DNA from: Spirogloea muscicola | Taxonomy: Eukaryota; Streptophyta; Zygnematophyceae; Spirogloeales; Spirogloeaceae | Length of the DNA: 48,019 nucleotides | NCBI GenBank assembly: GCA_009602725.1 | Contig: WELB01000025.1 | Span: forward strand, 911,853-959,871 | Direction: 5' to 3' | Part shown: positions 3,001 to 42,870 of the stretch, one piece after another | How the letters are laid out: each line of letters starts with the position of its first letter | Numbering within the stretch: position 1 is the stretch's first letter | Made by a program: the position numbers and the translations under genes | The notes under the pieces: model-generated | Told to the model about the DNA's origin: nothing | What the model saw: only the letters and a program-made list of their open reading frames with translations | Database searches by the model: none

Positions 3001-6000
3001 AGAGGAAGATGAGGTCAGCTATCAACCAGCTCGCAAGCATTTCGAGTTAGAGCCGGCTATAGCCAAAAATCTGCTGAAATGAAGCAGAGTCCCAGACAAA
3101 TGCGTTTTAGCTCGTTGTGCATAGCTGATGCAATGCTCAAAAGCATGGGGTGATTTCGTTAATTTGACTTTGACTGATCAAAGTGGTGTGGTTAGAAGCT
3201 CAGCCATACTTTGTCATTATCCTCCTCGATGCAGGATGATGGCGAGATTATTAGTGCCTGGAACCTGCGCAAGTGCAGTGCCGCGGGTCTGGACATCCTC
3301 TCCCTCGTGCTCAATGATGAGCTCCTACCGCACGTCATGCCCCTTGTGCAGGCATGCCCGCCTGTGCTTGCTCATGCCTTCATCATAGCTGCTGGCTAGC
3401 TTGTTGTGGGACTTGCGTGTTGATGCATGTAGTTTCGAAACCAGAGGATGATCAGCACGATAGGCAGTAAGGTCGCACTTTTCCTACTGGCCTTGGCGAT
3501 CTGGACAAATGAAGGAGAGTGTCTGCTGACAAATAGAGGAGCTGTGGCTCTCGCAGACTCGGTTGACGATCGCAGGCGACAGTGCGTGGAAAGAAAGGGA
3601 AGCGGCGGTCCTGGCACTGGGCGCCATTGCCGAGGGGTGCATCAATGGCCTCCTGCCGGTCTTACCACAGGTCTGGCAGTCTGTCTGAGGAGGCACAAAC
3701 ATAATGTGTTCGCTATTTTTCCACTTTGGCTTGTTGGGTATAATCGACAAGTTTGTCGCCAATTATACTGCACCAATCGCTCCTCTGCTGTCCCTTCTTG
3801 CGGCTTATTGCTCTATTTATCTGTGCTGGAGATTAGTGGCCTGCGTCAGGAGCTTATCTGTATGTTGGTACTGAGCTCATGCAGCTTGTGACATTTCTGC
3901 TGCCATTGTTGGAGGACAAGCACCCTCTCGTGCGGAGTATCACGTGCTGGACATTATCACGATACGCCAAGTTTATCATCCAGGTCGACCCGAGGCCCCG
4001 CCCATATACGTGTATTAACGAAATTGACGTGCCTCCGTTGGTGGTTGAGGACGAGTTAGCACTGTATATAATATGTCCTGACTACAGACCCTATATCTGA
4101 CCCATGAAATTATGATGTGGGTCCAATGGTTTTATTCTCAGCCCCCAGAGCCGTGATAGATTCACTTCCTAAACCCCTACGCATGACTAAGTCTCTCAAG
4201 CCCTGCCCCCTACTGTAGTTGGACCAACTGCAGCCTTCTGATGTGCAGGGAGAGCAGCAAGTTGGCAGTCAGGGACAGTTTGACAGCCTCCTCAGTGGCA
4301 TCCTGAAGCGCATCTTGGATTCCAATAAGTGCGTCCAGGAGGCCGCCTGCTCCGCGTTTGCCACCTTGGAGGAGGTATCTGACACGTTTATCTCAACACC
4401 CTCCTCAAGTTGGACTGTGTGCTTCCACCACGACAAATAGTCAGGATCTGAAAGTGAACAACTACATGAGTGATTGTGAATTCTGACAGTCCAAGTCGGC
4501 TAACTCATGCTCGCTTCCTGAGCATCTTCGCGAGCAGGAGGCAGGAGAGCAGTTGATACCAAGGTTGCAGTTGATCCTGCAGCACCTCATGTACGCGTTT
4601 GGCAAGTATCAGGTACGTGGCCAAGGCTTAGGTGATCGCATGCCTTCACATCTTGCAGGAGCGTGCATGCTGAGCGACCTTGTCAACCCTGATTTGCTGC
4701 AGAGGCGGAACCTTCGAGGTCTGTACGACGCACTTGGCGCACTGGCCGAGTCAGTGGGTGGAGAGCTTGCTGAGGTAGGCATCGGCCGAAATAAAACACT
4801 GTATGTTGCTGTACTAAAAATTTGCTGTCTTTATATCGTATTGCATGAAATCATCGTGATTGGTTACATATGATTGTATGATTGTTCACATCATGTTTCA
4901 ATGTCACTTGTTTATGCTCTGCAGCCCCAGTACATGGAGATTTTGATGCCGCCACTAATTGCCAAGTGGCAGCAGCTGTCAGACACTGACAAGGACCTCC
5001 TCCCGCTCCTTGAGTGCTTCGCCTCCTTGGCCCAGGTGACCTTGGGCTGCGGACGGTGTCAGCTGATCAAATGCACAGTCCCACACTTCTGAATAGTACC
5101 TCTCTTTAAATCCTTATAAAAGCTTCTTCCAAGCTTGAAACCGAGCTGTGTATGCTTCCATCTCTTTTTGTCATTGCATCTGGTACAACGGCAGGTTCTG
5201 ATTGTGAGGGTAGACAACTTTATGTACTGGGTTGATGCAGGCTCTGGGGATGGGTTTCGCACAGTATGCAGAGCCTGTCTTTGTGCGCTGCACTAACATC
5301 ATCCGAACCCAGTCTCTTGCCAAGGTGAGCTGCGGACATACTGCCGCTGCTCCGGTTGGATTGTAAATCCAGCTGTCAGCGCTTGCATGAGCGCAGAACA
5401 AGCACCTACATGGGCACCCCAACTGTTCCATCTTGTCATGTGCTGCTAAGTGGTCCGTAGCTTGACTTACGTCATGCCACTTGCTTGTCAGGTGGACAAC
5501 ACTCGGAGTGGAGTTGTATATGACAAGGACTTTGTGATCTGCTCGCTGGACCTGCTCTCAGGCCTGGCCGAAGGCCTTGGCCCCAGCATAGAAAGCCTGG
5601 TCTGTACCAGGCCCCACATCAGGCACAAGTAGCTGTTTGAGTTATACCTTTCTTTCATCAGCTCCAAGAGCTGAGACTGTCGAACTGACAGCTTACCTCA
5701 TATATACATGCAGGTGGGAAGGAGCGACCTGCGTGACCTGCTCCTGCAATGCTGCTCAGACAAGGACGCTGACATTCGACAATCTTCGCTTGCCCTGCTC
5801 GGCGATCTCGCCAAGGTGGGTTGCTTCAGCGTCACAGAGCTCCCTTTGAAGAGAATTTGGTATCTACTTTTGAGTACAGAGTCTACACTTGGGGTTAGAT
5901 AAAGCTTGGGATTGTCACGTGCAAGGGCACAGCAGCACAGCAGCAATTGACAGCATAATGGAGTTGTGCGTAGGCCTGCATGGTGCACTTGGAGCCGCGC

Positions 6001-8705: not shown

Positions 8706-11700
8706 CTAAGCTAGGAGGAAGTTGAAGATGTCTGTCAAGGAGACAATACCCTCCACGCGCCGGCTGCCAGCTTCCACACATATTAATCGTCGAACACCTG
8801 CGCATCATTGATAAAATATTATGGCTTAGGGTGTGTTCAATATACTGTTATAATTCGAAGCCTTGGGCCAGCCTGCAGTAGCCAGGGATAATGGCTGCGC
8901 CTTGCACCAGGGGTCGCTAGATGATCGATGATGGACCGCAGCGTGTCTGATCGCAGGCACATGTGGCAGCGCGTGCCCAGCTGGCCGGTTGCCCCGCCAA
9001 TCGCATCCTGCCTTATGTGCAGTGCCTGCGTGACGGCCATTGCGGCACCAATCAGTCAACGTGCCTGGGCCCTACTTGCCTAGGCACAGTGGCAGCCACT
9101 ATCCACCAGAGATGACCTCCCAAGGCAACAACTCGTAAAGCACGCATTGAGCACTTTACAACCTGAGCGACGGTGATGTCTTCTAGTTGTAGGCGAGCAT
9201 AGGTCCTATCTCTGGCTAATGCTGTGATGTCACTGGAAATACAACCAAAGCACAATGTTAGTCATTGCCGCAGACTCTTGGTGAAAGAGAGCATGGGAAA
9301 TCCAAAAATGACAGAGACAGCTCTGATGTGCATCTGTCAGTGCACAAGTACCGATGGAGCATGCAAGGACTTGAGCATAAACCATAGAGAGGAGACAGCT
9401 GGTCACCTGCGAGCATAAACATCAGTCAAGGCTCCATTTTCGTCCACCACCGGCAAGGAGCTCACACCAACTGCACCAAGGCCAACACTCCACATTTGAC
9501 TTTGTCGACCAGACAAAGGAGACATCGTCCTGAAGGTACAAGGCAAGTTCGCATCTCTAACCGAGGCACTATCCAGGGCTAAGCTATCCCGCTTGCTGTC
9601 CCAAGAAGGGCATACAGTTGCATGCTAGTCGTTGGTGCCAGTAACTATGTGGGTCCTGCAGGAGGGAGTACTTGCCCTGCAGAAGGAGGGTCAGGGCAGT
9701 GGAGAGAGGGGCGGAGGCTCGCAGAGTGGTGAGCGGCCGCCGGCCCGGCCGGCCCGTGTCGGTGGCCCAGGAGCCGACCGGCAGGGCGCCGAGCGGCTGC
9801 GCCAGCAGGGGCAGAGATCCTGCCACGTGCCGAAAGTGTCTCGCTACGCCTGCAGATGGCGCATGTCCATGACCAAATGAGCAACCGCAGATCCCAGCAG
9901 AAGCTGCATAGCCGAGTCCTGCCAAGGGTCTACAAATGGGCAGTGTCGCTGGTGGTGGTCATTGCATCACATTTTAGAATCCCTGATAGGGAGGCCAGAT
10001 GTAGCAGCTGCGGAGCTCCGCCGTCTGCCGAAGAACGGTGCAGCACGGGCACGGTCGCTACAGCTGCTTGCAGCAGGGCCATGGCCACGTGCCGGAGCGA
10101 GTCGTCTGGCGTCACCTGACAGTCACATAGTCACACACAACATGAAGGCCTCAGCAGTGCAGAAGCAGCATCTACAGGAGCATGCAGATGAATAAGCACA
10201 ATCTGGAGTGATGGCTGTCATCTTACAGAGACGAGCGGCCGGCGGCTTGGCGTGTGGGGTGCATCGTCCTGCCTTGATATGGCAAGCTTCTCCTCTTTCC
10301 ACGCCGCAATAGTGTGTGTCTCCAGCTCCTCCTCGCTCAATGATTGCCCGTTGCTTCTCAGCTGCGAGCATGAAGCCAGGCAGCTCACAACAGATGAACA
10401 GCTGTTACATCCAACAAAGTATACAGTATCAAACGCCGCTTCAGGCCTCCATCCTTTGCATGCTGCATCGTCTGGACAGGGCAACTATTGGTACTGCAGA
10501 CCTGCCGTAGGATGGCAATGAAGTCCGAGGCGCTGAGCATGCCCACAAAGTCCTGCTGTTGCGAGTCCCACAATGGAGCCGCCGGCACTCCCTGCCATGT
10601 CACAGAAAGATAGCCGTCGAAGAGGCGTCGAGGTTGGAGTGCAATTGTGGCCTGCTGTTGGCCTACCTTACTTCAACTGCATCTCCTGCCTTCTTGCATT
10701 TTGCAGCCGGCCTGGTCGGCTTACCTGCTCGTACAATGCGTGGAAGGCCTGCTTCACTGGGAGGTTGACGTCCAGAGCCACAACCTGCGTGAGACATGCG
10801 TTTCCCACCATGAAAGCTAGTTCACGAAAGCCAGCAAATAGAACGATATGTGCTCGTTCAAGCTGGGAAAGTGCACAGGAGCACCTCAAAGGAAATCAAT
10901 GCTGTGAGCTGCACGTTGTTGGCTGCTTGTCACGCAGTACCTTCCCAGACTCCGGAAGCAGCTCGTACGCCGTGTGGCGGTTGAGGTAGTCTGCAATGCG
11001 CTGCTTCGATGCCTCCGCGTCCGCCGCGGAGATCACCTCCGGCATGAGCTGCTGCTGGCCCTGCTGGTGGCCCTGCTGATGTCGAGCAAATGCAGGTCAG
11101 CAGACCTGACAAGCTGTCAGCCCTGATTATGAAATGTGACCAAGCTTGAGTACAGCATGAGTAATGACTACTCAGCGGCTGTACATTGCCACACGGGCAT
11201 GGATGCATGTGAATTTATGAGCGGATTGGAAGAAAGGAAGGGGGCTCGGTCAAGCGTGCCTGGTAGTCCTCATGGCCCGGTGGGCCTGTGGGGTGCGGCT
11301 GGCTGTGGAGCGAGACGTCCATGGGGTCCAGGTCCATGCTGCCGCCGTGCGCGTCGTGCGGGCCACCGCCTGGCGGCCGCCAGGCAAAGCAAATGCGCCG
11401 CCAAGTTCGTCAGCGCAGGTGTAATGGGCTTCTGACTAACCAAAATGGACACTGTGAGCAGCTCATATGGGTCTATCTAATCATGACTTTTGCGGGTCAC
11501 TTAGCAGTGGGTAAAGTACATCATTACATGTGTTTGCAAGGTGGGAAGCTGCATTTAGAGGCCACGGACCATGGGAATGACCGGCCGACGCGACGTCCGG
11601 CGGCGGCGGCGGCAGCAGCAGCGCGGGCTCGGGCTCCTTGACGAGGAGCCAGTTGTTGACGTTGCTCAGCGGGTCGGGCATGAACGACTGGCTCTCGTCG

Positions 11701-18027: not shown

Positions 18028-18335
18028 CTCTCTCTCTCACTTCCCCGCTCTCCCTCCCCCTCTCTCCTCCCCCCCACCCCCCAAACCGGGGCGAACTGCC
18101 CGGCGGAGGCATCCCGCAGGAGGCATCTGGGGTGTGGCGGGGTGCTCCTGCCCCGCCACCTCGGCCGGGCGGCAACTGGGGCGCGTGTATGAGAGCCCCG
18201 GGCTCCCGCCGGGGATTCGGGGGGGGTAGCCGAGCCGTCGGGCCGGCCAGGGGAATGAGTGTCTATCACGTGATGGAGGACCTCTGTGGCCAAGTACACA
18301 GGCATGCACGTTGCGGCCAGGGGGGCGCGCAGAAA
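17687..18335. promoter_or_regulatory. Upstream region of the NAC gene
   Basis: GC-rich sequence upstream of the NAC start on the minus strand. It contains the CA/CT microsatellite listed separately and C-rich tracts. No core promoter element can be named with confidence. Confidence 0.3.
17931..18039. repeat. CA dinucleotide microsatellite flanked by CT repeats
   Basis: A nearly perfect (CA)n run of about 80 bp (17944-18024) is bounded on both sides by short (CT)n runs. ORFs reading His-Thr or Cys-Val here are translation artefacts. Confidence 0.97.
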
Positions 18336-18600
18336 GAGAAGTGGCTCTCGTAATGGGGGCAAGGCCTGTGAAAAGCCAGCCCGGACAGAATGGACAAGGT
18401 GCGGAGTGCAAAAGAGGCTCTGTCGGTGGGGGCAAGGGCTGCGAAGTGCCAGCCCGAAAAGAAGTGACAGGGTCGAAGGTGGCCAAACGGCGGAGGAACC
18501 TAAACGATAGAAGAGAAGTGAGTTTCCCAATGGGGGCAAGGGCTGTGAGAAGCCAGCCCAAAAAGAATTGACAAAGCTTCGAAGGGGCCAAATGGCGGAG
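18336..18600 (+). repeat. Tandem array of three hairpin repeats (subfamily C)
   Basis: Three diverged units (about 18336-18410, 18411-18490, 18511-18600) share the pattern AATGGGGGCAAGGGCTG, a short loop, CCAGCCC, an A-rich stretch, GA(A)TTGACAA, then a GGGGCCAAA-like end. Each can fold as GGCTG...CAGCC. The same unit recurs inverted near 19000, 19220 and 39941, and direct at 40734. Confidence 0.75.
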
Positions 18601-18999
18601 GCGCCTAAAAGCGCTGTCAGAACGGGTGTAGGATGTGCGAAGGGGCCAAGCTACGAATTGGCCAGAGGCGCAGAAAGAGAGGGGGGCCATTGCCCAACAC
18701 GCATCCGCACGGGCAGGCGGCCTCGGCCTCCGTGGCAGCGACACCCCCTTGACCTGGCGGTCAAAACGATTCTGGCCGATCGACCCAATGTGACCCGGCC
18801 CAGAGAAGCTGGGCTCTGAGCTGGCCGGCCCCGCGCCCTAAACGCTACAAACACTACACGACGCTCCAACGCCCGCGCCCCTTGGTTCCCGCCCCTCCCT
18901 ACTAATAAGAGGGGAAGTTAGTTCCAGTAGAGGGCGGTCGCTGTGAGCGGCCAGCCCAGATGAAGATGATGAACAAAAGACTCCGCCTCTTTCCAGGAA

Positions 19000-19060
19000 T
19001 TCAATTCCTTTCGGCCTGGCTTCTCAGAGCCCTTGCCCCATTAGGAGAGCCACTTCTTTC
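19000..19060 (-). repeat. Hairpin repeat, subfamily C
   Basis: Inverted copy of the unit at 18511-18600. The TCAATTC, GGCCTGGCTTCTCAGAGCCC and GCCACTTCTTTC blocks are recognisable. Confidence 0.7.
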
Positions 19061-19074
19061 CAGGGATGCTTCTA

Positions 19075-19290
19075 ACCTCCACTGCCCTCATCCGGCTTTC
19101 GTCAAGGGGACCGCTTTCCGGCGGCTAGTCTTCATGACTTGCGGCTGCTAACTACAGGTGACTAAGTGATAGTTCTACATGGTCCTTGCTTGATTGTCTT
19201 TCAGCGCTTGTCGACCCATTCGGACCCCGTCAATTCTCTTCGGGCTGGCTTCTTACAGCCCTCGCTCCCTTCTGAAGAGCCACTTTTTCA
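19075..19290 (+). mobile_element. Non-LTR retrotransposon 3'-end fragment plus hairpin tail
   Basis: The stretch 19075-19160 resembles at DNA level the terminal coding block at 30920-30972 (TTTCCGGCGGCTAG against TTTTCGCCGGCTAG, then the leucine-rich LLTRGY-stop region), but its frame is broken. It is followed at 19220-19290 by a subfamily C hairpin (GGGCTGGCTTCTTACAGCCC), the same order seen at intact 3' ends elsewhere. Confidence 0.5.
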
Positions 19291-20071
19291 TCTCCACGCC
19301 CTGCGGTCTAAATACTCCTTCGTATCCGGACGTCCCGTGGGCTTATGTTGGGGTGACTCTTCTTTCCCAGCTGCACCTTACTGCAACTTGCAGCTACTGA
19401 CCTGGGACTGATAAGCTCCTACTTGCTGTAGCCAAATTGCACAGCTGCGTGACTCAAGCGCCTTTCGGCCCTCCAAGCAAGTCGTGCAAGTCGTGGGCTT
19501 CAAGACCCACTTCTTCCAGCTGAAGCTGAAAAATGTAACCGAATATGCATGTTGTCATGCCCGGGCGCAGAGCGGCGTTGTAGCGTCGGCCGGAAATCAA
19601 TCCCCTTGGCGACAGCCAGAAGAAGTGGCACTCCCAATGGGGGCAAGAGGGTGGTTGGGCGGAACCGACCATGGCTAACCCTGGTTAAGATATCTCAGGT
19701 AGGAAGGTAGTATGGGGAACCTCAGCAGGGGTAACCCATGGGGTGACTCGCTGAGTAGGGCGCAACCCGTATGGGCGGGCTGGAGAGCCCCGGGGCGCCG
19801 AGTACCAAGTCCCTGTACCTACTGCCTTTCTCCGTATTATGTAGCATTATTTAGTCTGCACTCGACTCTGCCTGAACAATGTATTGGCTTGAATTGGCCT
19901 CCCTTTCAATTCATGCGCCCCGCGCGCCTTCTCTCTTGACCCAAACTCGCGGGGTGGGCTCTCAAGAGATCGGAGGGCGGAGAGGTGTTCTTTTTCCGCG
20001 GAAAAATAATTTCAGTGGAGAAGTCCCTCAGTGGAGAAAGAACCTAGCGCGCCGCCGCAGCCCGGCAAGGG
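19291..20071. other. Spacer and probable 5' flank of the Ty3-type element
   Basis: Contains the palindrome at 19484, a partial subfamily C hairpin (19618-19650) and AT-richer sequence around 19800-19920 before the Gag ORF. A 5' LTR would be expected here, but I found no sequence matching the 3' flank (27600-27960), so none is called. Confidence 0.4.
19484..19545 (+). repeat. Dispersed imperfect palindrome (GCAAGTCGTGGG element), copy 1
   Basis: Arms around AAGTCGTGGG and CCCACTTCTT are followed by CAGCTGAAGCTGAAAAATGT. Copies at 35043 and 46309 share the palindrome and the CAGCTG...GAAAATTGT flank. Confidence 0.65.
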
Positions 20072-21204
20072 TTGGCAGGGTTTGGCGCAGCGCAGGTTGA
20101 AGCTCCGGGCCAGGTTGGTCGGGGGGCCGAAGCGGCGAGTGATCCCCCGGCGGGGGTGACGACGCAAGCGAGAGGGAGGCAAGGTGTGAATATTTACTTG
20201 CGGAGAGATGGCCTCACCGGAGATCCAGATTTAGATCCAGATCTAGATATGCGGAGGGCGGGCGACGCGGCGGCAGCGGGAGCGGCGCATTGGGCTACCG
20301 GGGTTGGGATCTGGGTGCCCACCAGGAGCGGCGCGCACTACTCGCTACCGCCCGCGGATCGGCAGTGGGACGAGGCAGATCTGCCGCCGGAGTCGTCGGA
20401 CGACGGTGCTGCGGCCAGCGACAACGAGGGCAGCGCACCGTCCGACGACAGCATGGAGGAGACGGCCGTGAGACCGGGGAGGAAGAACACCGGAATGGCG
20501 GATGGGATCTCGCTCTTGGAACTGGAGATGAAGGTCGAAGCGTCTATGGCATGGATGGAACTCAACCACCGCTTCATGCGGTGGGTGGGTTTCAAGACTC
20601 TGCCGAAATTCTTGGACGGGCCGGCGCTATGGTACTACTGTTCAATCATGAAGGAGATTCTGGCCACCAAGGAGGAGGTGCCGGCTGGCGGGAGGCCAGC
20701 CAGCGGTGAGGATCATGGTGCTGCGGCAGAGGAGCTCATTGCGGGTCCGTCAGCGGCGGCGGAGGGGGCCCTGGGGGCGGGGACGCCGGCCCAGCGGGAG
20801 CATTTGCTGGCAGACCCTATCCAGCACTTCCTGCATCTGCTCAGCCTTCAATTCAAGACAGGCTCCGCGGGCAAGGTGGCGGAGCTGGTTAACTTTATCA
20901 CCTGCCAGGCGAGGACGTCATGGTCATGGCACAGCGCCTCAAGCAGCTGCGCCGTGACACGGGCAGGTTGACAGAGGTCGATGCGGCTCACAAGTTCCTA
21001 GAGGCCCTTGGAGGAGGCAAACAGGGGGCTTGGCTTGAGCAACAGGTCTTCGTAGCCTACCACCATACCTTCACCATTGACCAGGTGGCGGATCTCGCCG
21101 ATGACGTCGAGCGTCACTTCGCAGGGAAAGCGGTGGAGGTAGCGGCTTCAGTCAAGAGCAAAGGGAGGCCGGCTGCTCAGCCGCGGCCGTGGTCAGGGAC
21201 TTAG
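20072..21204 (+). pseudogene. Gag-like capsid region
   Basis: The first ORF (20072-20971) begins with an acidic, low-complexity segment (DSMEET, DEADLPPESSDD) and continues into a capsid-like helical region (DPIQHFLHLLSLQF, GKVAELVNFITCQ). A frameshift near 20905 moves the reading to the ORF ending at 21204, where MAQRLKQLRRDTGRLTE, AHKFLEALGG and ADLADDVERHF continue the retrotransposon Gag fold. The stop at 21202-21204 is in the same frame as the zinc knuckle that follows, so it is probably a nonsense mutation or a Gag terminus. The family is assigned by position and general character, not by a decisive motif. Confidence 0.65.
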
Positions 21205-21219
21205 CCGAGACAGTGGCGG

Positions 21220-21315
21220 GTGCCCAGCAAGCAGGGCATGGCGGCGGCGTCGTTAGTACTAGCCGGGCCGGCTGGGGCCGGTCTCTGCTACACGTGCAAC
21301 CAGCCTGATCACATG
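21220..21315 (+). pseudogene. Interrupted Gag zinc knuckle (CCHC)
   Basis: The residues [10 protein letters not shown] begin a CX2CX4HX4C knuckle, the nucleic-acid-binding motif at the end of Gag. The final Cys is missing because the sequence switches at about 21316 to mitochondrial nad1. This dates the insertion after the Gag sequence was already in place. Confidence 0.65.
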
Positions 21316-21448
21316 CTGTTCCGATTATTACAACCTCTAGCAGATGGTTTTAAATTAAGGATAAAAGAACCTATTTGGCCTAGTAGTGCAAACCTCTTGA
21401 TCTTTGTAATGGCTCCTGTTCTTACTTTTATGTTAAGTTTGGTAGCAC
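21316..21448 (+). pseudogene. nad1: NUMT: internal fragment of mitochondrial nad1
   Basis: AT-rich insert of about 130 bp within GC-rich sequence. It translates in frame to [25 protein letters not shown] and [13 protein letters not shown], which is the conserved NADH dehydrogenase subunit 1 (complex I) segment that binds near quinone. The downstream AWAVVPFDYG stretch of nad1 is absent: after LSLVA the sequence returns abruptly to GC-rich element DNA. Roughly 43 codons, no stop. Codon use (TTA, AGG/ATA) is organelle-like and unlike the surroundings. Confidence 0.85.
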
Positions 21449-21699
21449 GGCCGCCTGGAGGAGCAGGGCGCGCGGTACCCCTTGTCGTTTGCGCGCTTTA
21501 CGGAGGTGGCTGCAGACGGGCCAGCGGCGTCTGGAGAGGGCGCGGGCAAGTCTCCGTGCGGCAGCTAGCGGCCGCACTCATGAGCACGCCCTTGCTGTGG
21601 TTGGCAAGCACGGGCTGCTCTGAGTTGGCGCTGAGGGAGGCGCTGCAGCAGCACCTGCCGGGCCCGCTGGAGGGCAACGTGGCGGGGTCGAGCGAATCA

Positions 21700-21895
21700 C
21701 CCAAGGCCGCCCAGGGGGGGGACGCCCCGACCGCCTGCAGTGACAACTCAGGGGCTTCCGAAAGGGGCCCCTGCAGGTCGATTCTACCCCTTTTGCCTGC
21801 TTCTGCAGCCGTGGGCGAGGAATCGGTGGCATTGGAGCGGCCACCAAGCACTTGTGCCGTTGGGGGGCTGCCCATGCAGAAGGGAGCCAGGCGCT
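21700..21895 (+). repeat. Intra-element module, copy A
   Basis: It starts CCAAGGCCGCCCAG, then GGACGCCCCGACCGCCTGCAG, a hairpin CAGGGGC...GCCCCTG, then GGTCGATT, a C/T-rich stretch, GGGCGAGGAAT, GGAGCGGCCACCAAGCAC and a CCATGCAG end. Tandem with copy B at a spacing of about 194 bp. Confidence 0.85.
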
Positions 21896-22085
21896 CAAGG
21901 TCGCGCGGGGGGCGGACACCCCGACCGCCTGCAGCGAGCGTTCAGGGGCTTCTGGAAGGGGCCCCTGCAGGTCGATTCAACTCCTTCTGCCTGCGCCGGC
22001 AGCGGGCGAGGAATTGGTGACCTTGGAGCGGCCACCAAGCACTCGTGCCGTTGGGGCCCATGCAGGGGAGAGCCGGTCGCTTCCT
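21896..22085 (+). repeat. Intra-element module, copy B
   Basis: Second tandem copy, immediately before the protease. Same order of blocks as copy A: ACACCCCGACCGCCTGCAG, the CAGGGGC...GCCCCTG stem with a different loop, GGTCGATTCAACTCC, GCCACCAAGCACTCGTGCCG. Confidence 0.85.
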
Positions 22086-22129
22086 AAGCGGCGGGTGGCG
22101 GAACGAGTGGGGATCACCCCCAACGTGGC

Positions 22130-22450
22130 GCTGGTAGTACAACAAGACGGCTTTGTAAAAGTCAACGGCAAAGCTCCTGCCCGTGTCATGCTGGACACGG
22201 GTGCGCAGCCGGTGCTGCTTGGCCGCAGCATGGTGCCGCTGCTGAGGCTGCGCCCACAGGATCTGCAGCCGTCACCAGTGGCCATCAAGACGGCGACGGG
22301 CGGCGTCACGACGGGGCTGCGGCAGACACGCGAGCCTATTTGCATCACCCTCAACCAGGGCGGCGCAGACGAGGTCAGCCGGCGCCTCCACTGCTTAGTA
22401 ACGGAGGCCACAACATTAGATGTGCTGTTAGGCACGGAGTTCTTGTATCC
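22130..22450 (+). pseudogene. Retropepsin-like aspartic protease domain
   Basis: The residues PARVMLDTGAQPVLLG carry the DTGA catalytic motif of retroviral-type aspartic proteases. The later TLDVLLGTEFLYPCGV matches the conserved hydrophobic-glycine segment (..ILG.dfL...) near the domain end. It would process the Gag-Pol polyprotein. The domain itself is unbroken, in the same frame as the methyltransferase start. Confidence 0.82.
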
Positions 22451-22839
22451 ATGTGGGGTGAGTGAAGACCTGTGGGAGGAGGTGGGGAGTTACCAGCCCG
22501 GGTACGCATGTGAAAAGGGACGCAAGGTAGAGTTCCCACTGCAGCTGGTTGCCGCAGTGGAGGAAAGGGCTGCATTCGCGTGCCACAGGGAGGCTGCGTG
22601 GGTGGGCAGCGACCTGCTGTCCATGCTGCCGGAGGAAGCGGCCTCCACGACATTGGCGGCAGTGCGCTCAGGAGTGGCTTTTGCAGGCCACGGGGCTGCT
22701 GCGCATGCGGTGCAGGTGGAAGAGCTGGTGGATCGCGTGTGGAAGCAGCTGTTACTGGTGGCGCAGGAGCTGCCAGCGTGTCCGCCGGCAGTTGTGCAGC
22801 TGCATGGAGAGCCGTTGGTGGACAGCACAACTATTGAGT

Positions 22840-23869
22840 GGACGATCCTGCACGGCGGGGTTGTCCTTTTGGAGCTCTTTGGCGGCATCGCCACCGGGCT
22901 GGCGGCGGTGTCGGCCAACGGTGTGCGGGTCTGACGGTACGTGTACGTCGACCCGGATCCGGTGGCGCAGGCCGCAGCAGCGCATCACATTCGGCGGCTG
23001 ATGGACGAGTACCCGGAGCTGCTGACCACGGAGGCCATCAAGGGGTACCTCACCACCCTGCCGGCTGACGTCCAGCTGGTGGGCCCACATCACCTCAGGG
23101 GGTTGGGACAGGTGGTTCTGGTGATTGCAGGTTGGGAGTGCCAAGGCCATTCCAGCGCTGGTGCAGGTCGAGGGTTAGCTGACGCCCGCTCACGGCTCTT
23201 TTGGGAGGTGGAGCGTGTTTTGGCACTGCTGCAGGGGGGGCAGGAGGCCCCCATAGCATACGTGTTGGAGAACGTGCCGGCAGGCAACGATCACTGCGAG
23301 AATGTGCAGCGTGACTTCCAGGTGGTGGAGAGCCGCATTGGGCGCGGCGTGCCTCTGGACGCAGCTGCTCTGGGCAGCCGCGCGCATCGGTTGCGAACGA
23401 AGTGGACCAACCTGGCTCAGCCAGAGTTGGTGGCAGCTGCGGTCGCATTAGTCAAGCGCCCAGCCGGGCTATGAGTGGCAGACAGATTGGACCCGGGGAG
23501 GGTGCCTCAGCCAGTGAAGCGGGACGACATGCCTCCGTACGCGCTGTGCAACAAGGTGGGGCAGCCACGGGCGGCGTTGCCCACGCTGGTTAGCTACCGG
23601 GCGTCTTACGCGTTCAGGAATGGAGGCCAGGGTATGGTGTGGGACAATACCAGCGCCTGGAGGAGCCCCGTGCCGACGAGCGGGAGCGGGCGTTGGGCTT
23701 CCAGACCGGCACAACAGCGGCTCCTGGGCTCACCGAGCGGCAGCCTCGGAAGCTGTTGGGGCAGGCTATGGATCTGAGGGCTCTCACGTGGGTGCTGTCG
23801 GTAGGCTTTGCCGCGCAGTGGAGCCAGCAGGCAGCGTGGCAGCTGGCGCAGGGGCTCTCCATACAGTGA
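22840..23869 (+). pseudogene. Cytosine-5 DNA methyltransferase domain embedded in Pol
   Basis: SAM-dependent C5 cytosine methyltransferase. Motif I (SAM binding): VVLLELFGGIATGLAA. Motif II-like: YVYVDPDPVAQ. Motif IV with the catalytic cysteine: LVIAGWECQGHSSAG (TGC at 23139-23141), where the usual Pro-Cys is Glu-Cys. Motif VI: YVLENV. Motif VIII-like: PLDAAALGSRAHRLRTKWTN. Later segments LDPGRVPQPVKRDD, LVSYRASYAF and ADERERALGFQTGTTA, then KLLGQAMDLRALTWVL (motifs IX/X), complete the fold. The overall plan resembles DNMT3-like enzymes. In-frame TGA codons at 22932 and 23472 and a frameshift near 23640 break it. No separate target-recognition or chromatin domain is seen inside it. It lies between protease and RT, so it was presumably made as part of Pol. 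Methyltransferase capture by LTR elements is known from Klebsormidium and Symbiodinium. Confidence 0.88.
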
Positions 23870-23935
23870 GCGGCGCGCGCAGGCGCTGGCGGCTTTCCAC
23901 TGGGGGGGGGGAGTAGAGCCGCAGCTTGAAGAGGT

Positions 23936-24130
23936 GGCACCCAAGGCCGCGCAGGGGGCGGACACCCCGACCGCCTGCAGTGAGAATTCAGGGGTCCCGA
24001 AAGGGGCCCCTGCAGGTCGATTCAACTCTTTCTGCCTGTGCCGGTATCCTTGGGCGAGGGATCGGAATTTGTGGAGCAGCTACCAAGCACTCGTACCATT
24101 GTGGCGGTCCCTGCAGGGAGGAACCCATCG
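23936..24130 (+). repeat. Intra-element module, copy C
   Basis: Between methyltransferase and RT. Shares CCAAGGCCGCGCAG, GACACCCCGACCGCCTGCAG, the CAGGGG...CCCCTG stem, GGTCGATTCAACTC, ACCAAGCACTCGTACC and a CCTGCAGGGAG end with copies A and B. Confidence 0.85.
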
Positions 24131-24277
24131 CTATACGTGGCCCAGCAGCAGGAGGCTGGGGGGGGGCCCGCATAGCAACCACAGCAGGAGAAATTGGGAT
24201 CAGGGAAGGAGAAGCTGCCCCACGAGTGGGATGTGGGCGAGGAGTTGTCCAACCAGGAGTAGACGTTTGCCTTCTCC

Positions 24278-25590
24278 ATGGCGGAAGTTGGCACCTGCCA
24301 GTTAGGGGAAATGACGATTGTGCTGACCACAGCAGAGCCGGTACACCAGCGGAGGCATCGGCTCAGCCCGGTGGAGTGGGCGCTGGTGCAGGTGCGCTGT
24401 GAGGAGCTAATGCAGGTGGGGCTCATCGAGGAGTCGGAGTCGCAATACGCGGCGCCGACGGTGATGCCAGCGAAGAAGGACCTTTTTGGCCAAAGGACGG
24501 AGAAGAGGATGTGCGGGGAACACCGCGCCCTGAATGAGGTGACTCAGCCTGATCACTATCCCATGCCCACCCGAGAGGAGATATTTGATGAGCTGGGTGC
24601 AGCGTGCGTCTTCAGCATCTTGGACCTGCGCCAGGATTTCGATCAGATTGGAATCGAGATGGAGGACAGGCCAAAGACAGCCTTCTGGGGAGCGGAGCGG
24701 CTCTACCGGTGGACGCGCATGCCATTTGGGTTGCGCAACGCCCCGGCCAGATTTCAACGCGTGATGGATCAGGTCTTGGCGGGGTTGCGCTTTGCCAGAT
24801 GCTACATTGACGGCGTGTTGGTGTTTAGCACAACGGTGGCAGAGCACGTGGCGCACGTGGAGGCGGTGCTGGGGAGGATTGGGACATCCGGAATGAAGTG
24901 TCACCCAGGCAAGTGCTGGTTTGGGGTGGGCACGGTATCGTATATGGGACATGAGGTAACACCAGGAGGGTTGGGCATGCAATGGGCGAAGGTGGACGCG
25001 TTGATGTGCGTGCCAGTGCCTACAAACATCAGCAGGCTGCGAGCCTTCCTGGGCCTGGCAAGCTTTTATCGGCAATTTGTGAAGGGCTTCCCCGCTGTCG
25101 TGAAGCCGCTGAATGAGCTGCCGAAGAAGGGGGAGCCGTGGGTGTGGACAGCGCCGCGGCAGCAGGCGTTCGAGGAGGTGAAGGAGCGCCTGTCTTCTGC
25201 GCCGGTGCTGAGGCGGCCGGACTACTCCAAGCCTTTCCACTTGCATACAGATTGGAGCCAACTGGAGCTGGGAGCAGTTTTGGTGCAGGAGGAGAAGGAG
25301 GGACAGGAGTATGTAGTAGCGTATGCGAGCCGTTCCAACAACGCCGCGGAGGCCAACTACAGCTCTTATGAGGGCGAGTGCCTTCGCGTCTTGTGGGCGG
25401 TGGTGCACTTCCGTCCATACTTGTATTGCAGAACATTTGTGCTGGTCACCGATCATCAGCCGTTGAAATGGCTTATGACGAACCAGAAGCTTACCGGCAA
25501 ACACGCAAGATGGGCGCTTACCCTGCAGGAGTACAACTTCGAGATCCGCCATTTGCGGGGGAGACACACTTGGACGCTGACGGCCTCAGC
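24278..25590 (+). pseudogene. Reverse transcriptase and RNase H domains
   Basis: A single open frame carries both. RT: QVGLIEESESQYAAPTVM, then SILDLRQDFDQIGIE (first catalytic Asp), then RMPFGLRNAPARFQRVMD, then CYIDGVLVF, where the catalytic YxDD motif has become YIDG, a loss expected to inactivate polymerisation. The LRAFLGLASFYRQFVKGF connection follows. RNase H (Ty3 type): HTDWSQLELGAVLVQ, VVAYASRS, SSYEGECLRVLWAV and LVTDHQPLKWL keep the D, E and D residues. The family end HLDADGLSRNP is reached only after a frameshift near 25560. Confidence 0.92.
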
Positions 25591-25711
25591 CGCAACCCCA
25601 AACCGAGCACTCAAGACAGGATTGAGGCACGGGCGGACCACAACAGTGCGGAGGTGGAGCTGCCCGCGTGGTCGGCTTCGGCGATGCTGCTGCAGCTGCT
25701 TGACACGACCG

Positions 25712-25815
25712 AAGGCCGCGCGGAAAGCGGACACCCTGACCACCTGCAGCGAGAATTCATGGGCTTCCGAAAGGGGCCCCTCCAGGTCGATCTACTCCTT
25801 CTGCCGGCCTGTTGG
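25712..25815 (+). repeat. Intra-element module, copy D (most diverged)
   Basis: Between RNase H and integrase: AAGGCCGCGCGGAAAGCG, GGACACCCTGACCACCTGCAG, CATGGGC...GGGGCCCCTCC, GGTCGATCTACTCC. One arm of the conserved stem has decayed. Only the first half of the module is recognisable. Confidence 0.75.
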
Positions 25816-26156
25816 ATTGGCGCAATGCGGTTTGAAGTCATCTCCGGCGTGGCGGCACAGTCCGACCACCGTGGCGTCTCAAATGAGCGGCGGCGCGGCG
25901 GGAGCAAGAGCGTTGGGAGGGTCGGGAGTGTGGAGCGGGAGCAGGCGATTGAAATACGCGGGGGTAACGAATAGCCTGGCCGCCGTTATGGAAGAGACCT
26001 CCAGGTGGTACTGTCGCCGTGGAGCCATGCCGCAGCTGCTAGGCTTTGCCACTAGCGATGTTGTATGTGAGGACAGGGGCGTGGCAGGAGGCAGATTGAC
26101 CACATATACTGCTCCGAGGCTCGTGCCAGGGGAGACCTCCCAGCAGGCGGCTGGGG

Positions 26157-27456
26157 GTGCTCCGGACGTGTGGAGCGACCTGGAGGCTGGAGTACCTCCA
26201 ATGGCCTGAACATCCGTCGGGGAGGAGCAAGGCGAGCAAGGACCGTGAGCAGCAGCGGGCGCAACGGTACCGGTGGCGCAAGGGCCACCTGCTGCTGTTG
26301 AAGAAGGATGGTGGGGAGAGAGTGGTGCCCAGGCCAGCAGAGCGGACGCCGTTGGTGCTGCAGCAGCATGAGCTGCTTGGGCACTTCGGGGTGAAGAGGA
26401 CCCACAGCCTGGTTGCGTGTGGTCACTGGTGGAAGGGGATGGCCAGGGATGTGGCTGCGGTGGTGGCGCGGTGCGAGGCCTGCGACCGCGTCCGAGCCAA
26501 CCTCATGGTGCGCAGCGTACAGCTGCATCCACTCCCATCAACGGACTCTTCTACAGGTGGAGTCTTGATTTGCAGGCGAGCTGCCACTGTCGAAGCGTGG
26601 GCTGTGCTAAATCTTGATTATGGTGGAGCACGCAAGCAAGTGGGTAGAAGTGGTTGCCATCACGGACAAGTCCAGCTCGCTGATCGCAGCTTGCTTCCTG
26701 CATCGGGTGTTGTGCCGCTTTGGGGCCTGCGCTGAGGTGCTCACCGATGGCGGTACCGAGTACCGCGGCGCGTACGACAAGTTGTTGGAGGACGCCTTGA
26801 TCGACCACAGGACGACCTCGCGCAACAACTTGCAGGCAGACGGGCTGGCGGAGCGGATGGTTCAGACAGTGAAGAGGGGACTGCAAAAGTTCTGCCTGGA
26901 GAGGGACACCAGGGATTGGGATCTATTCCTCCCCTGGTTGCTGCTGGGGTACCGCATGAGTAAGCAGGCGGCGCTGGCGAGCTACTCGCCGTACTTCTTG
27001 CTCTTTGGCAGGCATCCTCTGCTGCCAGCTGCCATCCGACCGCGGGTGGAGCCAGTGGTGCACATGAACAGCCCAGGGCGCTGGGTGGCGATCTGCGAGG
27101 AGTGCGGGAGGCTCTTCTGCAGGGTCATGCCGATGGCGATGGGCAACTTGGCAGTGGCGCAGCATCGCGACAAGCTGCGCTACTCGCAGGTGCGGTCAGG
27201 CAAGTACCAGCCACGGGTGATGAAGTTTGAGAGGGGTGACTACGTGTATGTGCAGCGCCAGCAGCGCAGCACCTTGGACGCGGGTGTCCGGCGGGTCGTC
27301 CTGCAAGTGAAGGAGGTGAGGCCCAGCGGCGTGCTGCTGCTGCAGGGCCGGTGCGGATGCACTGTTGCAGAGCACCAGCGCAACTGTGAGCCGTGCCATC
27401 TTCCCGACCTGGACTGCACTGTCGACTACACCTTGGTGTGGACGAGGAGGGGATGA
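26157..27456 (+). pseudogene. Integrase (zinc-binding, core and C-terminal regions)
   Basis: HHCC zinc finger: QQHELLGHFGVKRT followed by CEACDRV. Core D,D-35-E: first Asp in GLFYRWSLDLQ (in a different frame), second in VLTDGGTEYRG, Glu in LQADGLAERMVQTVKRGL, followed by WLLLGYRMSKQAAL and SPYFLLFGRHPLLP. The C-terminal part has YVYVQRQQRSTLDAGV and the basic barrel region. It would insert element cDNA into the chromosome. Frameshifts near 26540 and 26610 separate finger, first Asp and rest of the core. Confidence 0.9.
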
Positions 27457-27599
27457 GGTGTGAAGTGTGTGGCGGCTTGAACACTGAGCCGCCCATGCTG
27501 CTATGCGACCGCTGTAACGAAGGGTGGCACACTGGCTGCTTGCAGCCACCTCTTGCTGAGGTGCCGGCCGGGCAGTGGTTCTGTCCGCGCTGCGCATAG
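27452..27599 (+). CDS. PHD finger at the end of Pol
   Basis: A complete C4HC3 PHD finger: MRCEVCGG, PMLLCDRCNEGWHTGC, VPAGQWFCPRCA, stop at 27597-27599. All eight zinc ligands are present. PHD fingers of this type often read the histone H3 N-terminus, so it could guide integration as chromodomains do in other Ty3 elements. It is in a different frame from the integrase, which ends at 27456. The two overlap by a few codons, so one indel separates them. The open frame begins at 27393. Confidence 0.85.
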
Positions 27600-27600
27600 T

Positions 27601-27989
27601 GCTGTCATAGTTAGGGTGCTTAGCCGTCAGAGGATGCAGCTGCCTCTCGGGTCCAGGCAGCTGGGAAGGGGGTGTGGCGACTCTTCTGCCACATTCTTTG
27701 CAGGTCTGCTCATCTGGTAGTGAGGCTATGCAGGGCACGCTGCTGCCAGCCAAGCAGAGTTCCTGGCCTGTAGGCGGGGCTTCAGGTGTGGCAATTTGAC
27801 GTATTGTGAGCGCTGAACGGGCAGGCACGACAATGTAAATGTCACGCTTCAAGAGGTCAACAGTGCAGGCAGGTCATGTGACCTGTCCTCACCAATCTGT
27901 ACACTATCTACACAGGGAGCTGGTGGAGTCTCTCCCAAGTAGAATGCTAGTGAACCGAAAAGTAAATGTGCAGGTAGATATATACATAA
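27601..27989. other. 3' flank of the Ty3-type element
   Basis: Contains a purine-rich GGGAAGGGGGTGTGG stretch (about 27661-27675) that could be a polypurine tract just before an LTR beginning with TG, but no matching 5' LTR was found. Nothing else is recognised. Confidence 0.35.
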
Positions 27990-36640: not shown

Positions 36641-37568
36641 CATGAGTTCGCCCGAAGCGCATCCGCGCGGGAGGAAAGCCTCACGGGATTTGCGAATGCG
36701 GGGCCGCCGAAGGGGACGCGCAACAAGGGGCCTCGGGCGCCTTTCGGCCGTCGCCTGTCAGTACGCGATCGGGCGGTCCGCATTGGCTGGCGAAGTCGTC
36801 ACCTTCTGGCGGGCGCCCCTGGCTTTTTGGCGGATGCTGCTTAGGTGGCGTTACCACGTGACGCCAAAAGGTGGCCACCGCACGAGCAGCGCCCACAGGT
36901 GACATTCTGCAGCTGCTCCTCTGCTTCTACAGGCTGCCAGGCGCCGGCTCAGGCCCGCTCCGCTTAACAGAGAGATGGGTCGCCAACAGAAATCACCGCA
37001 AAAGCTGCAGCCAGGTAACACATGCCAACCTTCTGTGGTCTTGTCAGGCTGGGCTGCTTCGGCGTGCCATACAATGAAAGCCGTGGCCGACAAAGCACGT
37101 CATAATGCGCGCTTGATCCAAGCCGTGGCCGTCGATAGGACGTCATCCGCCTCTTCGGCAGCTGCCTCCTTGTTTTGGCCCGTCCAGCCGCCACGGCATT
37201 GGCCCGGGGCGCCACGTGATGGTTGTCTCGGCCAGTGCTGGTGGCAGCTGTGCCACGTGTTTTTCACACTAGGTGCACCTGCCGCGGACGGCTGTTTCCT
37301 TGTGCTCACAGCCGTTGCTGTCAATTTGGAAGAAGTTGTTTTTCTTTTCGTGCCCTGGCCCTTTTCTCCAGCCCCTTTTCTTTAGGCTGGTGCCCACTAC
37401 TACTGGAGACGCCATTCTCATGCTCATGATGCCTCGCCCCCTTAGCTTCTCTAGTTCTTCATGCGTTTATATGTGACAGGTTATCGACGGCTCACTTGGC
37501 AAGCCCCCTTGCTGTGTTGTTGGATGCTTTGCCCCAGCCCCAGCGGCATCCTCCCTACAGAAGAAAGT
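36641..37568. other. Region without a recognised gene
   Basis: GC-rich 36.6-36.9 kb, then mixed sequence. Several CACGTG palindromes (near 36856, 37212, 37255) and an imperfect 40-bp direct repeat (AAGCCGTGGCCG...ACGTCAT, 37078 and 37120) are visible. These could be bZIP/bHLH-type sites but are too short to claim. Confidence 0.3.
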
Positions 37569-37655
37569 GCTCGCCCATTGAGAATAGGGGCTGGAAAAGC
37601 CAGCCCAAAAAAGAATGAACAGAGTACGAGAAGGGGGCCAGGGGAAGCGCTAAGA
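37569..37655 (+). repeat. Hairpin repeat, subfamily B
   Basis: GCTCGCCCATTGAGAATAG, GGGCTGGAAAAGCCAGCCC, AAAAAAGAATGAACAGAG, GAAGGGGGCCAGGGGAAGCG. Near-identical to the inverted copies at 39789 and 42721. Confidence 0.88.
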
Positions 37656-38035
37656 AAAACAAGCACACAGAGAAACAAAGCAGCTACGAATCACTCAGTA
37701 ACCTCCATACAGGACGCACAAAGTCTCTGCAAACCCTCATGAAGCCCATTATTACATACCGCATTCTCGGCTGAGCCTGGTGCTTACGCCCACTTTTGCT
37801 TCTTGCAGTCTATCCACCCTAGTTAGCACTCAATTTTTGGGGCTAAATAAGACATATGTCAAGCTCAACCAAAGTGGGGCGATGGTAATCACACAGACGG
37901 TCAGAACAGAAAGAAATAGACAAGTCAAGTCCTCATATCGAACCCAGCGAATAGAGCATTTTCCAAAAGCAGGGCGATGGCTGTGAATGGCCTGCCCGAA
38001 GAAGAATGGAAAATGTTCGCCGGGGCGGAAAGAAA
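37656..38035. other. Spacer with a partial hairpin repeat
   Basis: Contains a diverged hairpin unit at about 37970-38020 (GGCTGTGAATGGCCTGCCCG followed by AAGAAGAATGG). No gene is recognised. Confidence 0.4.
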
Positions 38036-39313: not shown

Positions 39314-39788
39314 CGGTCACTACCCCCAGGCTGTCGTGAGCCCGTCTGACGTTCCCGTCAACACTAATGGCTAACAACGCCGTCAAGGCAGTCTACAGCG
39401 CTGCCGCCTCCCGTCGTCATTCCAGCGCCAGCCAGCACCGTGCTGTCTCGCGCGTCACGACTCCGGGTTGCGCCGCTCTCAGTTCTAGGTTGAACTGACG
39501 CTGCCCAGCTTGGTGAAACTGTCCGTCTCCAGGCATCTGTCAAGCCTTTCCTGCGGCACTGACAGTCAAATTATCCATCAGCCGGATGAGGTGTCTGGTC
39601 AGGCATCTGTCAATACCATACTGCCGTATTGACATTCCAACCATGTTAAATTTGTTACAATACCCGTAAAACTTTTGGTAGGCGCGGCGCTTTGGATTGG
39701 CGGGGTTTTGGCCACGTGCCGGATTTCAATGACCCCACGTTCCCCCTTCGCCCCTGCCGACGGAGCCCTCTTTCTGTGCTTATATATC
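39314..39788. other. Spacer, no recognised gene
   Basis: A short imperfect repeat (GGCATCTGTCAA..C near 39533 and 39602) is visible. No gene is recognised. Confidence 0.35.
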
Positions 39789-39875
39789 TTAGCGCTTCCC
39801 CTGGCCCCTTCTCGTACTTTGTTTTCATTCATTTTTGGGCTGGCTTTTCCAGCCCCTATCCTCAACGGGCGAGCC
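39789..39875 (-). repeat. Hairpin repeat, subfamily B
   Basis: Inverted copy: TTAGCGCTTCCCCTGGCCCC, TTTTGGGCTGGCTTTTCCAG, CCCCTATCCTCAACGGGCGA. A second partial hairpin (GAGCTGGCTTTGCCAGCCC) follows at 39887-39905. Confidence 0.85.
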
Positions 39876-39940
39876 CTTCTTCTTTCTGAGCTGGCTTTGC
39901 CAGCCCAGAGTGGTTTTGCGATAGCGCTTCTGGCCCCTTC

Positions 39941-41419: not shown

Positions 41420-41500
41420 GAGCTCGCCCATAGAAGAGAGGGGCTGGCAGAAGCCAGCCAAAAAAAGAATGGACAAAAGCCAAAGAGCTACAGGAGAATT
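41420..41500 (-). repeat. Hairpin repeat, subfamily A, as tail of the fragment at 41503-41895
   Basis: Read on minus: after the stop codon of the LINE fragment comes TGTAGCTCTTTGGCTTTTG, TCCATTC, TTTTTTGGCTGGCTTCTGCC, AGCCCCTCTCTTCTATGGGC, GAGCTC. This is the clearest case of the hairpin lying at the 3' end of a LINE ORF. Confidence 0.85.
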
Positions 41501-41502
41501 AC

Positions 41503-41895
41503 TCAGTAACCCCTGCTAAGCAGCCACAGGTCGGAGATGCTAGGCTCGTGGAAGTGGGTCCCCTGGCCAGAGCCAGAGGCAGCAGCGAGGGCTCTGCCGG
41601 CACGACGGTGCAACGCCCGGGCCATAGACCGCTGCAGCGAGACGGCCAGGCGCATTCGATACACTTGCGCCAGCGACCCGACCGCAAGAAAGTCGACCCG
41701 CTCCCCATGGAAGCGACGGGCGATGGTGTGGCGGGCGAGCTGGGTGAGCAGCTCGAGCCACCGAGCGCCCAGCGCCCCATGGGTATCAATGGCCAACGGG
41801 AAGAACTCGTCTTCCCGCGGGTGGTCAGCGTACTTCAGCTCTTTGGCCCGAGCAGCGCAGGCGACCGCATACCCAGCCTTGGTGGCACATTGAGC
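41503..41895 (-). mobile_element. Best-preserved non-LTR retrotransposon C-terminal fragment
   Basis: Open for about 130 codons: KAGYAVACAARAKELKYADH, DEFFPLAIDTHGALGARWLE, LLTQLARHTIARR, VGSLAQVYRMRLAVSLQRSM, ARALHRRAGRALAAA, SISDLWLLSRGY-stop. The frame is unbroken, implying a fairly recent truncated insertion. Truncation at the 5' side is usual for target-primed reverse transcription. Confidence 0.75.
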
Positions 41896-41982
41896 TGGGT
41901 GTGAGCGGTCGTAGCGGCTATGGCCGCTGCCTCAGGGTCTCTGCAGAGTGCTGCTTTTCCTGCTTCGAGTTATTCGAAGAGA
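41896..41982. other. Short spacer
   Basis: No feature recognised. Confidence 0.3.
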
Positions 41983-42608: not shown

Positions 42609-42720
42609 ATTCTCCTTTTCGATTCAGTCTCTTGCTTTTGCGCCATCTGGCCCCTCCAGACCTTGTCCATTTTTTACTGAGTGATTTGTAGCTGCTTTCT
42701 TTCTTTGTCTGCTTTGGTTT

Positions 42721-42870
42721 CTTAGCGCTTCCTCTGGCTTCCTCTGGCCCCCTTCTCGTTCTTTGTTCATTCTTTTTTGGGCTGGCTTGTCCAGCCCCTA
42801 TCCTCAATAGGCGAGCCCTTTCTTCTCTTTTGGGCTGGCCTCTCACAGCCACCAGTCAATCTGGAAACGC
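42721..42870 (-). repeat. Subfamily B and subfamily D hairpins in series
   Basis: 42721-42817: GCGCTTCCTCTGGCTTCC, GGCCCCCTTCTCGTTCTTTG, TTTTTTGGGCTGGCTTGTCC, AGCCCCTATCCTCAATAGG. 42826-42866: TTTTGGGCTGGCCTCTCACA, GCCACCAGTCAATCTGG. A 12-bp duplication (CTTCCTCTGGCT) lies at the start. Confidence 0.85.

Follow-up and report, generated by a model that had tools for sequence, protein, structure and literature searches.

The DNA considered here (the window) is a stretch of 48,019 nucleotides from Spirogloea muscicola (assembly GCA_009602725.1, contig WELB01000025.1, positions 911,853 to 959,871 of the forward strand). It contains a decayed copy of a Ty3/Gypsy-type retrotransposon at positions 19,642–27,832, as delimited by the limits of similarity to other copies and by terminal sequences, and all features of the element are on the + strand. 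A cytosine-5 methyltransferase (MT) domain, probably of the DNMT3 type, is found at 22,863–23,803, with a protease (PR) upstream and a reverse transcriptase (RT) downstream. The MT domain was recognized using PF00145 (8e-8 for the piece 22,935–23,471) and by its similarity to copy L024, whose MT domain is open. The aspartic protease, with the motif DTGA, appears at 22,155–22,445 (PF13975, 1.6e-8; PF13650, 1.3e-8). The frame for RT and RNase H (RH) spans 24,263–26,206, with RT at approximately 24,494–24,958 (RVT_1, 2.8e-23) and RNase H at approximately 25,220–25,534 (RT_RNaseH, 5.3e-36). The zinc-binding domain of the integrase (INT) follows at 26,334–26,498 (PF17921, 7.5e-14) and the integrase core frame at 26,611–27,453 (PF00665, 1.6e-6). 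The core scores 28.8 bits, below the cut-off of 32.6; the integrase core of copy L024 scores above this cut-off. A PHD finger is encoded at 27,453–27,599 (PF00628, 5.3e-13), and its ATG and the integrase frame's TGA overlap. The initial annotation had described a Gypsy-type element with a cytosine-5 MT between PR and RT, and this description is borne out by the Pfam order: PR, MT, RT, RNase H, integrase zinc finger, integrase core, and PHD. The predicted leaky stop, the PHD finger, and the split terminal repeats described below are additions to the initial annotation. The element is assigned to the Ty3/Gypsy type by its PR-RT-RNase H-INT order with a DDE-type integrase.

The window copy is, as judged from its sequence, dead and a fossil, because it shows in-frame stops, frame changes, a lost left end, and the insertion of a piece of a mitochondrial gene. 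The MT domain is broken by in-frame TGA codons at 22,932 and 23,472 and by a frame change near 23,650. A further in-frame TGA is located at 23,867, other frame changes occur in gag and pol, and the left terminus is missing. The gag-like region at 20,048–21,201 occupies two overlapping frames, is followed by the remnant of a zinc knuckle, and was identified by tblastn matches in L021, L032, and L035; no Pfam gag match was obtained for the window copy, and zf-CCHC reached only an E of 0.054. The insert of about 135 bases within the gag region (21,306–21,440) resembles mitochondrial nad1 (PF00146 NADHdh, 8.4e-8), and the similarity of the window copy to other copies breaks off there. It is a small nuclear piece of organelle DNA that also gave one NuoH plasmid match.

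The MT motifs LELFGGIATG, AGWECQGHS, ENV, HRLRTKWTN, ERERALGF, and LLGQAMDL are readable in the window in the order reported earlier, together with the DTGA of the protease. The codon for the predicted catalytic cysteine (motif IV, as W-E-C-Q) is at 23,139–23,141, and the ENV motif (motif VI) is at 23,268–23,276. Both are invariant in 12 aligned copies, and motif VIII and the cofactor motifs vary little or not at all across the same rows. The best profile and fold match of the MT is the catalytic domain of animal DNMT3A/3B/3C, with 20–24% identity over the aligned fold. A single-sequence search of the PDB placed HhaI first and listed no DNMT3. DNMT1 was absent from the 57 PDB sequences and 50 rows compared, which is not read as a true absence, and the MT trees held no canonical DNMT3. 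Unlike the animal enzymes, the Spirogloea MT has neither an ADD nor a PWWP domain and sits in a Gypsy polyprotein. Among the best 80 of 85 IMG/VR relatives, the top segments extended at most over residues 2–189 of the 325, with 30% identity. This set contained no close viral relative, which does not exclude one. The MT was found to be under purifying selection by dN/dS in pairs of copies.

Other copies were sought in the same genome (153 Mb, 471 contigs). The MT piece gave at least 130 matches at E ≤ 1e-3 on many contigs, with 150 of 169 candidates scored, and the INT-PHD portion gave 136 matches. The window and 20 fetched regions, picked for high scores or long open frames, were examined; this sample therefore leans toward the better copies. 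MT is followed by RT on one strand in 14 of the 21 regions, and the remaining 7 are without this junction. In copy L024, Gag, CCHC, PR, and the intact MT are contained in one frame of 1411 amino acids, which ends at a single stop and continues in the same frame as RT-RH-INT-PHD for 1037 amino acids. The public gene models SM000026S08863, SM000129S26163, and SM000077S21602, whose SM identifiers are those of S. muscicola, coincide in scaffold number and coordinates with MT matches on contigs C26, C129, and C77, respectively; SM000012S25399 has no counterpart among the MT-piece matches.

Of the 78 genomic matches to PF00145, 8 on contigs C256, C168, C234, C10, and C23 are outside the MT-piece list and look like host genes. 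A few more rows outside this list are on C254, C94, C95, and C49, with one on C40. C256, C168, and C234 share a pair of DNMT-type exon matches, and this threefold occurrence fits the triplicated genome reported for S. muscicola. The C256 host locus is DNMT1-like, and a second, different host locus of DNMT type is represented by L125 (G000:C10:1144900-1147900) and C23:433369. Comparison of the element MT with the loci on C256 and C10, two of the five candidate contigs, gave no significant similarity (best tblastn E = 0.027). The proposal that the domain is not the host's own DNMT is consistent with this result and with the many copies that carry it. The fusion of MT and RT could in principle stem from misassembly or from a single event in which a host DNMT gene was captured, and the window copy is indeed damaged and mosaic. 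This explanation is rejected as practically untenable, because the MT-RT junction recurs across copies, the matches are distributed over many contigs, public proteins also combine MT and Gypsy domains, and the similarity to the host loci on C256 and C10 is insignificant. The junction was accordingly taken as no misjoin.

A single stop is found in the better copies at one shared place between MT and RT, followed by the hexamer CARYYA. This combination is present in 11 of the 14 MT-RT junctions, with 0.49 expected for the 5,774 bases searched at a background of 8.54e-5 per base (these sites included). The stops are TAG in 6 junctions and TGA in 5; TAA does not occur. In 8 of the 11 the stop is in frame with RT. 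The 11 junctions are not independent events, because the copies are related. Most copy pairs are synonymous-saturated, and the stop is present as TAG and as TGA. The predicted leaky stop of the window copy, TAG-CAACCA, is at 24,173–24,181 in the RT frame, and no CARYYA follows the decay stops at 22,932, 23,472, and 23,867. The three junctions lacking the motif are those of L031, which reads TAG-CAACGA; L026, which reads tyrosine-Gln-Leu where its relative on C351 (L028) reads stop-Gln-Leu; and L034, in which MT and RT nearly abut with a gap of 5.

The CARYYA hexamer plays an important part in the readthrough of tobacco mosaic virus (TMV), where UGA performs about as well as UAG and both far exceed UAA (PMC4132726). 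Readthrough in TMV is approximately 10% in vivo (PMC2754532). The tobamovirus replicase likewise has a stop, then CARYYA, with the polymerase behind it; in contrast, the Spirogloea element is a retrotransposon, uses UGA as well as UAG, and its readthrough is predicted from sequence. A stop also sets the ratio of two products in gag-pol readthrough of the Tca2 type (PMC2194720), but the Spirogloea stop follows both the protease and the MT, which are thus on the Gag side. Since the stop is conserved in a CARYYA readthrough context, the major product most likely includes the MT along with Gag and protease. Outside Spirogloea, P0089, P0090, P0091, P0093, and P0095 are protease plus MT frames that terminate about 100 residues past the MT without RT, at either a stop or a contig edge.

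The favored reading, to which a probability of roughly 0.55 is assigned, is that the window holds a decayed copy of an old and diversified streptophyte family of DNMT3-carrying Gypsy elements whose MT is made on the Gag side of a leaky stop and methylates the element's own cDNA. The first frame in the better-kept relatives is Gag-protease-MT, ending at UAG or UGA followed by CARYYA, and readthrough of this stop would add RT, RNase H, integrase, and PHD. The MT would be made near the level of Gag, packed into the particle, and possibly released by the protease. It would then methylate the double-stranded DNA copy of the element before or at integration, and new copies would arrive already marked. 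The PHD finger may help to steer integration by reading histone H3. The initial annotation had suggested that the element might methylate its own or other DNA, perhaps to escape silencing. The question at issue is why a transposon carries the kind of enzyme that is used for silencing transposons. The location of the MT on the Gag side of a conserved leaky stop gives a concrete hint of the place and the amount in which the enzyme is needed.

A peptide that may hold a cleavage site for the protease recurs in the window subfamily. This linker of 49–66 amino acids is nearly identical between copies. Two copies lie between gag and protease (21,697–22,067, comprising 21,697–21,843 and 21,891–22,067), a third between MT and RT (23,937–24,079), and a partial fourth between RNase H and integrase (25,709–25,792). 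L021 contains three linker copies (3264–3635, 5508–5705), all in the MT reading frame. The peptide was not found at E ≤ 1e-4 in L024, L026, L031, L032, or L040.

The best matches of the PHD finger among solved structures include the PHD fingers of ATXR5, KDM5, KMT2D, CHD4, WSTF, UHRF1/2, and PHF21A. Several of these bind H3 that is unmethylated at lysine 4, and by analogy the PHD finger of the element may bind H3 likewise. The nearest solved relatives being readers of histone H3, the MT might instead act in trans on the host genome, either by disturbing or diluting silencing or by altering chromatin where the integrase docks. Effects on host methylation are discussed for Symbiodinium in the 2018 paper on retrotransposon methyltransferases, but the same source reports no strongly divergent methylome in Klebsormidium (PMC5890265). 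The position of protease and MT in the Gag frame also suits packaging into a particle better, and action in trans is regarded as unlikely.

Retrotransposon methylases in general have been proposed to shield host and element from DNA viruses or other foreign DNA (PMC6338049). The anatomy of the Spirogloea element gives no sign of foreign targets. Moreover, the loss of such enzymes is tied in that source to land plants, yet related MTs are present in liverwort and moss records. Such a defensive role is judged highly improbable here.

The reading of the MT as a Gag-side enzyme acting on the element's own cDNA is met by several observations that weigh against it. No stop is found from MT toward RT in P0097, in the Closterium gene models P0108, P0112, and P0113, or in the Sphagnum model P0115. 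In a second domain order (type II), represented by P0001, P0098, P0100, P0102, P0109, and P0110, the MT comes after RNase H, and the integrase is behind the MT in the proteins that reach far enough; the order in P0109 was read from its sequence and listed domains. An MT at the level of Gag is consequently not universal. In yeast, no methylation was obtained with the MT of Klebsormidium, a result that its authors call inconclusive (PMC5890265). Some dN/dS values for the MT are near 1, up to 0.93, in pairs with decayed copies. The comparison of CpG decay lends no clear support either: in 14 of 15 pairs, CpG sites show more transitions than the remaining G/C sites do (ratios of 0.9 to 2.4), but CpG transversions are raised too. 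Finally, the usual proline before the catalytic cysteine is gone in the W-E-C-Q group; in the window group, Glu or Gly replaces it.

This substitution bears on the possibility that the MT, at least in the W-E-C-Q group, is kept for nucleic acid binding or for folding of the polyprotein, without catalysis. The conservation of Cys, ENV, motif VIII, and the cofactor motifs in the 12 aligned rows argues against such a role, as does the Pro-Cys retained by the other clade, and it is considered quite doubtful. The Glu-Cys-Gln version of motif IV had been taken in the initial annotation to set the domain apart from ordinary host enzymes. It is not special to the window insertion: the same version recurs in Closterium, in P0095 and P0103, and in several further elements. 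Motif IV reads W-P-C-Q in the liverwort and moss copies and F-P-C in the other Spirogloea clade.

Related MTs were identified in Closterium, liverworts, and a moss. The Marchantia record, P0096, places one in a model liverwort and offers a tractable plant for the question. In a tree of 55 MT rows, the six type II proteins cluster together (100/100), with three unassigned rows among them, and the four liverwort and moss rows are grouped (100/100). The Spirogloea rows appear in two separate places: one is a clade containing the C2 and C341 copies (100/100), and the other is the window subfamily, which is placed beside Closterium at a weak 82/75. The RT tree of 18 rows, including one DNMT-free Gypsy RT, recovered type II (100/98), the C2/C341 clade (100/99), and the window pair (100/99). 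The MT and RT distances are correlated (r = 0.795, 16 rows), and 0 of 2000 permutations gave a value as high; by these sequence comparisons the two histories are congruent. The orders PR-MT-RT and RH-MT-INT, separate in both trees, provide a natural comparison of MT dose. The PHD finger is kept in the type II proteins P0001, P0098, and P0110 (RT-RH-MT-INT-PHD). These three proteins share a tail behind the PHD, with a motif like FWGRLHF...R..YF...Y.DG, that is perhaps a Tudor-like domain.

Gypsy elements carrying DNMT3 are known from the streptophyte Klebsormidium (de Mendoza et al. 2018, PMC5890265), and the DNMT3-like domain of the window element is of the kind published there, as had been supposed. 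KnitGypsy-Dnmt3 of Klebsormidium nitens is similarly a streptophyte Gypsy element whose coding region includes a DNMT3-type domain and shows purifying selection. It is known here by description only; in comparison, the Spirogloea family has its MT in one frame with Gag and PR, ahead of a predicted leaky stop, and a PHD finger behind the integrase. The main text of PMC5890265 nowhere mentions PHD, readthrough, or protease, and no Klebsormidium sequence was among the named database matches. SymbioDIRS-Dnmt3 and SymbioLINE-Dnmt of Symbiodinium are also retrotransposons with a DNMT; SymbioDIRS has two domain orders, and its MTs methylate CG in yeast (PMC5890265). SymbioDIRS is a tyrosine recombinase element of the DIRS type and SymbioLINE is a LINE, whereas the Spirogloea element is a Gypsy with a DDE-type integrase.

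In the open-licence literature of PMC, no paper was found that treats DNMT-Gypsy elements in Spirogloea, Closterium, or bryophytes, or that describes a leaky stop in elements of this kind. The available parts of PMC12344493, on streptophyte DNMT-Gypsy elements, do not mention Spirogloea or Zygnema, and the features named next are not described in those of PMC6453930, PMC9516144, and PMC6338049. Not found in the literature searched were the placement of the MT on the Gag side of a leaky stop, the combination of a PHD finger with an MT, the two Gypsy domain orders, and the occurrence of the family in Zygnematophyceae, liverworts, and moss.

The window copy shows its right end only, and no pair of terminal repeats was found around it. 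The right-end repeat at 27,672–27,832 was delimited in the same manner as the copy itself and is placed like repeat B of the C341 copy. It ends in the terminus GGCACGACA (27,824–27,832); the terminal sequences of the window subfamily are TGTCATG (L023, L035, L036) and GGCACGACA. The C341 copy (G000:C341:16766-26297; L031 with L041) is the one copy resolved at both ends. Its repeats are A1 (467–767), B1 (8727–8960), the dinucleotide GC, A2 (8963–9262), and B2 (9765–9998). The repeats are 97–98% alike, the outer ends read TGTC...GACA, and ACGT on both flanks is likely a 4-bp target duplication. This split A...B-A...B arrangement is not that of ordinary U3-R-U5 direct long terminal repeats, and the element is still of Gypsy type because of its pol order. 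The arrangement A-coding-B-A-B is shared with SymbioDIRS and, by the legend of Figure 4, with KnitGypsy-Dnmt3 (PMC5890265).

The B-NN-A junction was detected at 12 places, 11 with GC and one with AC, and the reversed control gave 0. The B-GC-A junction of C341 looks like joined circle ends, in an element with a DDE-type integrase. At C95, C242, C39, and C299 there are A...B pairs with an overall span of 1.4–1.7 kb, which look like remnants of recombination. The C2 copy has flanking repeats of about 80% identity beside tandem units, which fits badly with its long open frames. At the level of sequence, the domain order, the conserved stop with its context, the purifying selection on the MT, the congruent MT and RT histories, and the ends of one copy are established. 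A wider combined account is offered tentatively and is held to be less probable than not. It supposes that the MT is a particle protein at the dose of Gag (about 10 MT per RT) in particles that methylate their own cDNA, that split repeats and a circle-like B-GC-A junction rebuild the ends in an unusual manner, and that the lineage is ancient, extending from Zygnematophyceae to liverworts and moss.

The observed/expected CpG ratio is 0.79 for the window element and 0.66 and 0.75 in the remaining window. For ten elements of the other clade the ratios are 0.50–0.71, relative to 0.70–0.89 in the nine flanks measured. The window-group copies C326 and C361 have values of 0.81 and 0.84, with flanks of 0.90 and 0.76. 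At G000:C91:239487-242185, four MT matches, two of which have the same score, are spread over both strands of a 2.7-kb stretch; this cluster consists of rearranged element pieces. Short dispersed repeats in the window at 18,300–19,300, 37,556–37,703, 39,769–39,891, 41,481–41,914, and 42,674–42,827 are found again close to many of the element copies that were fetched.
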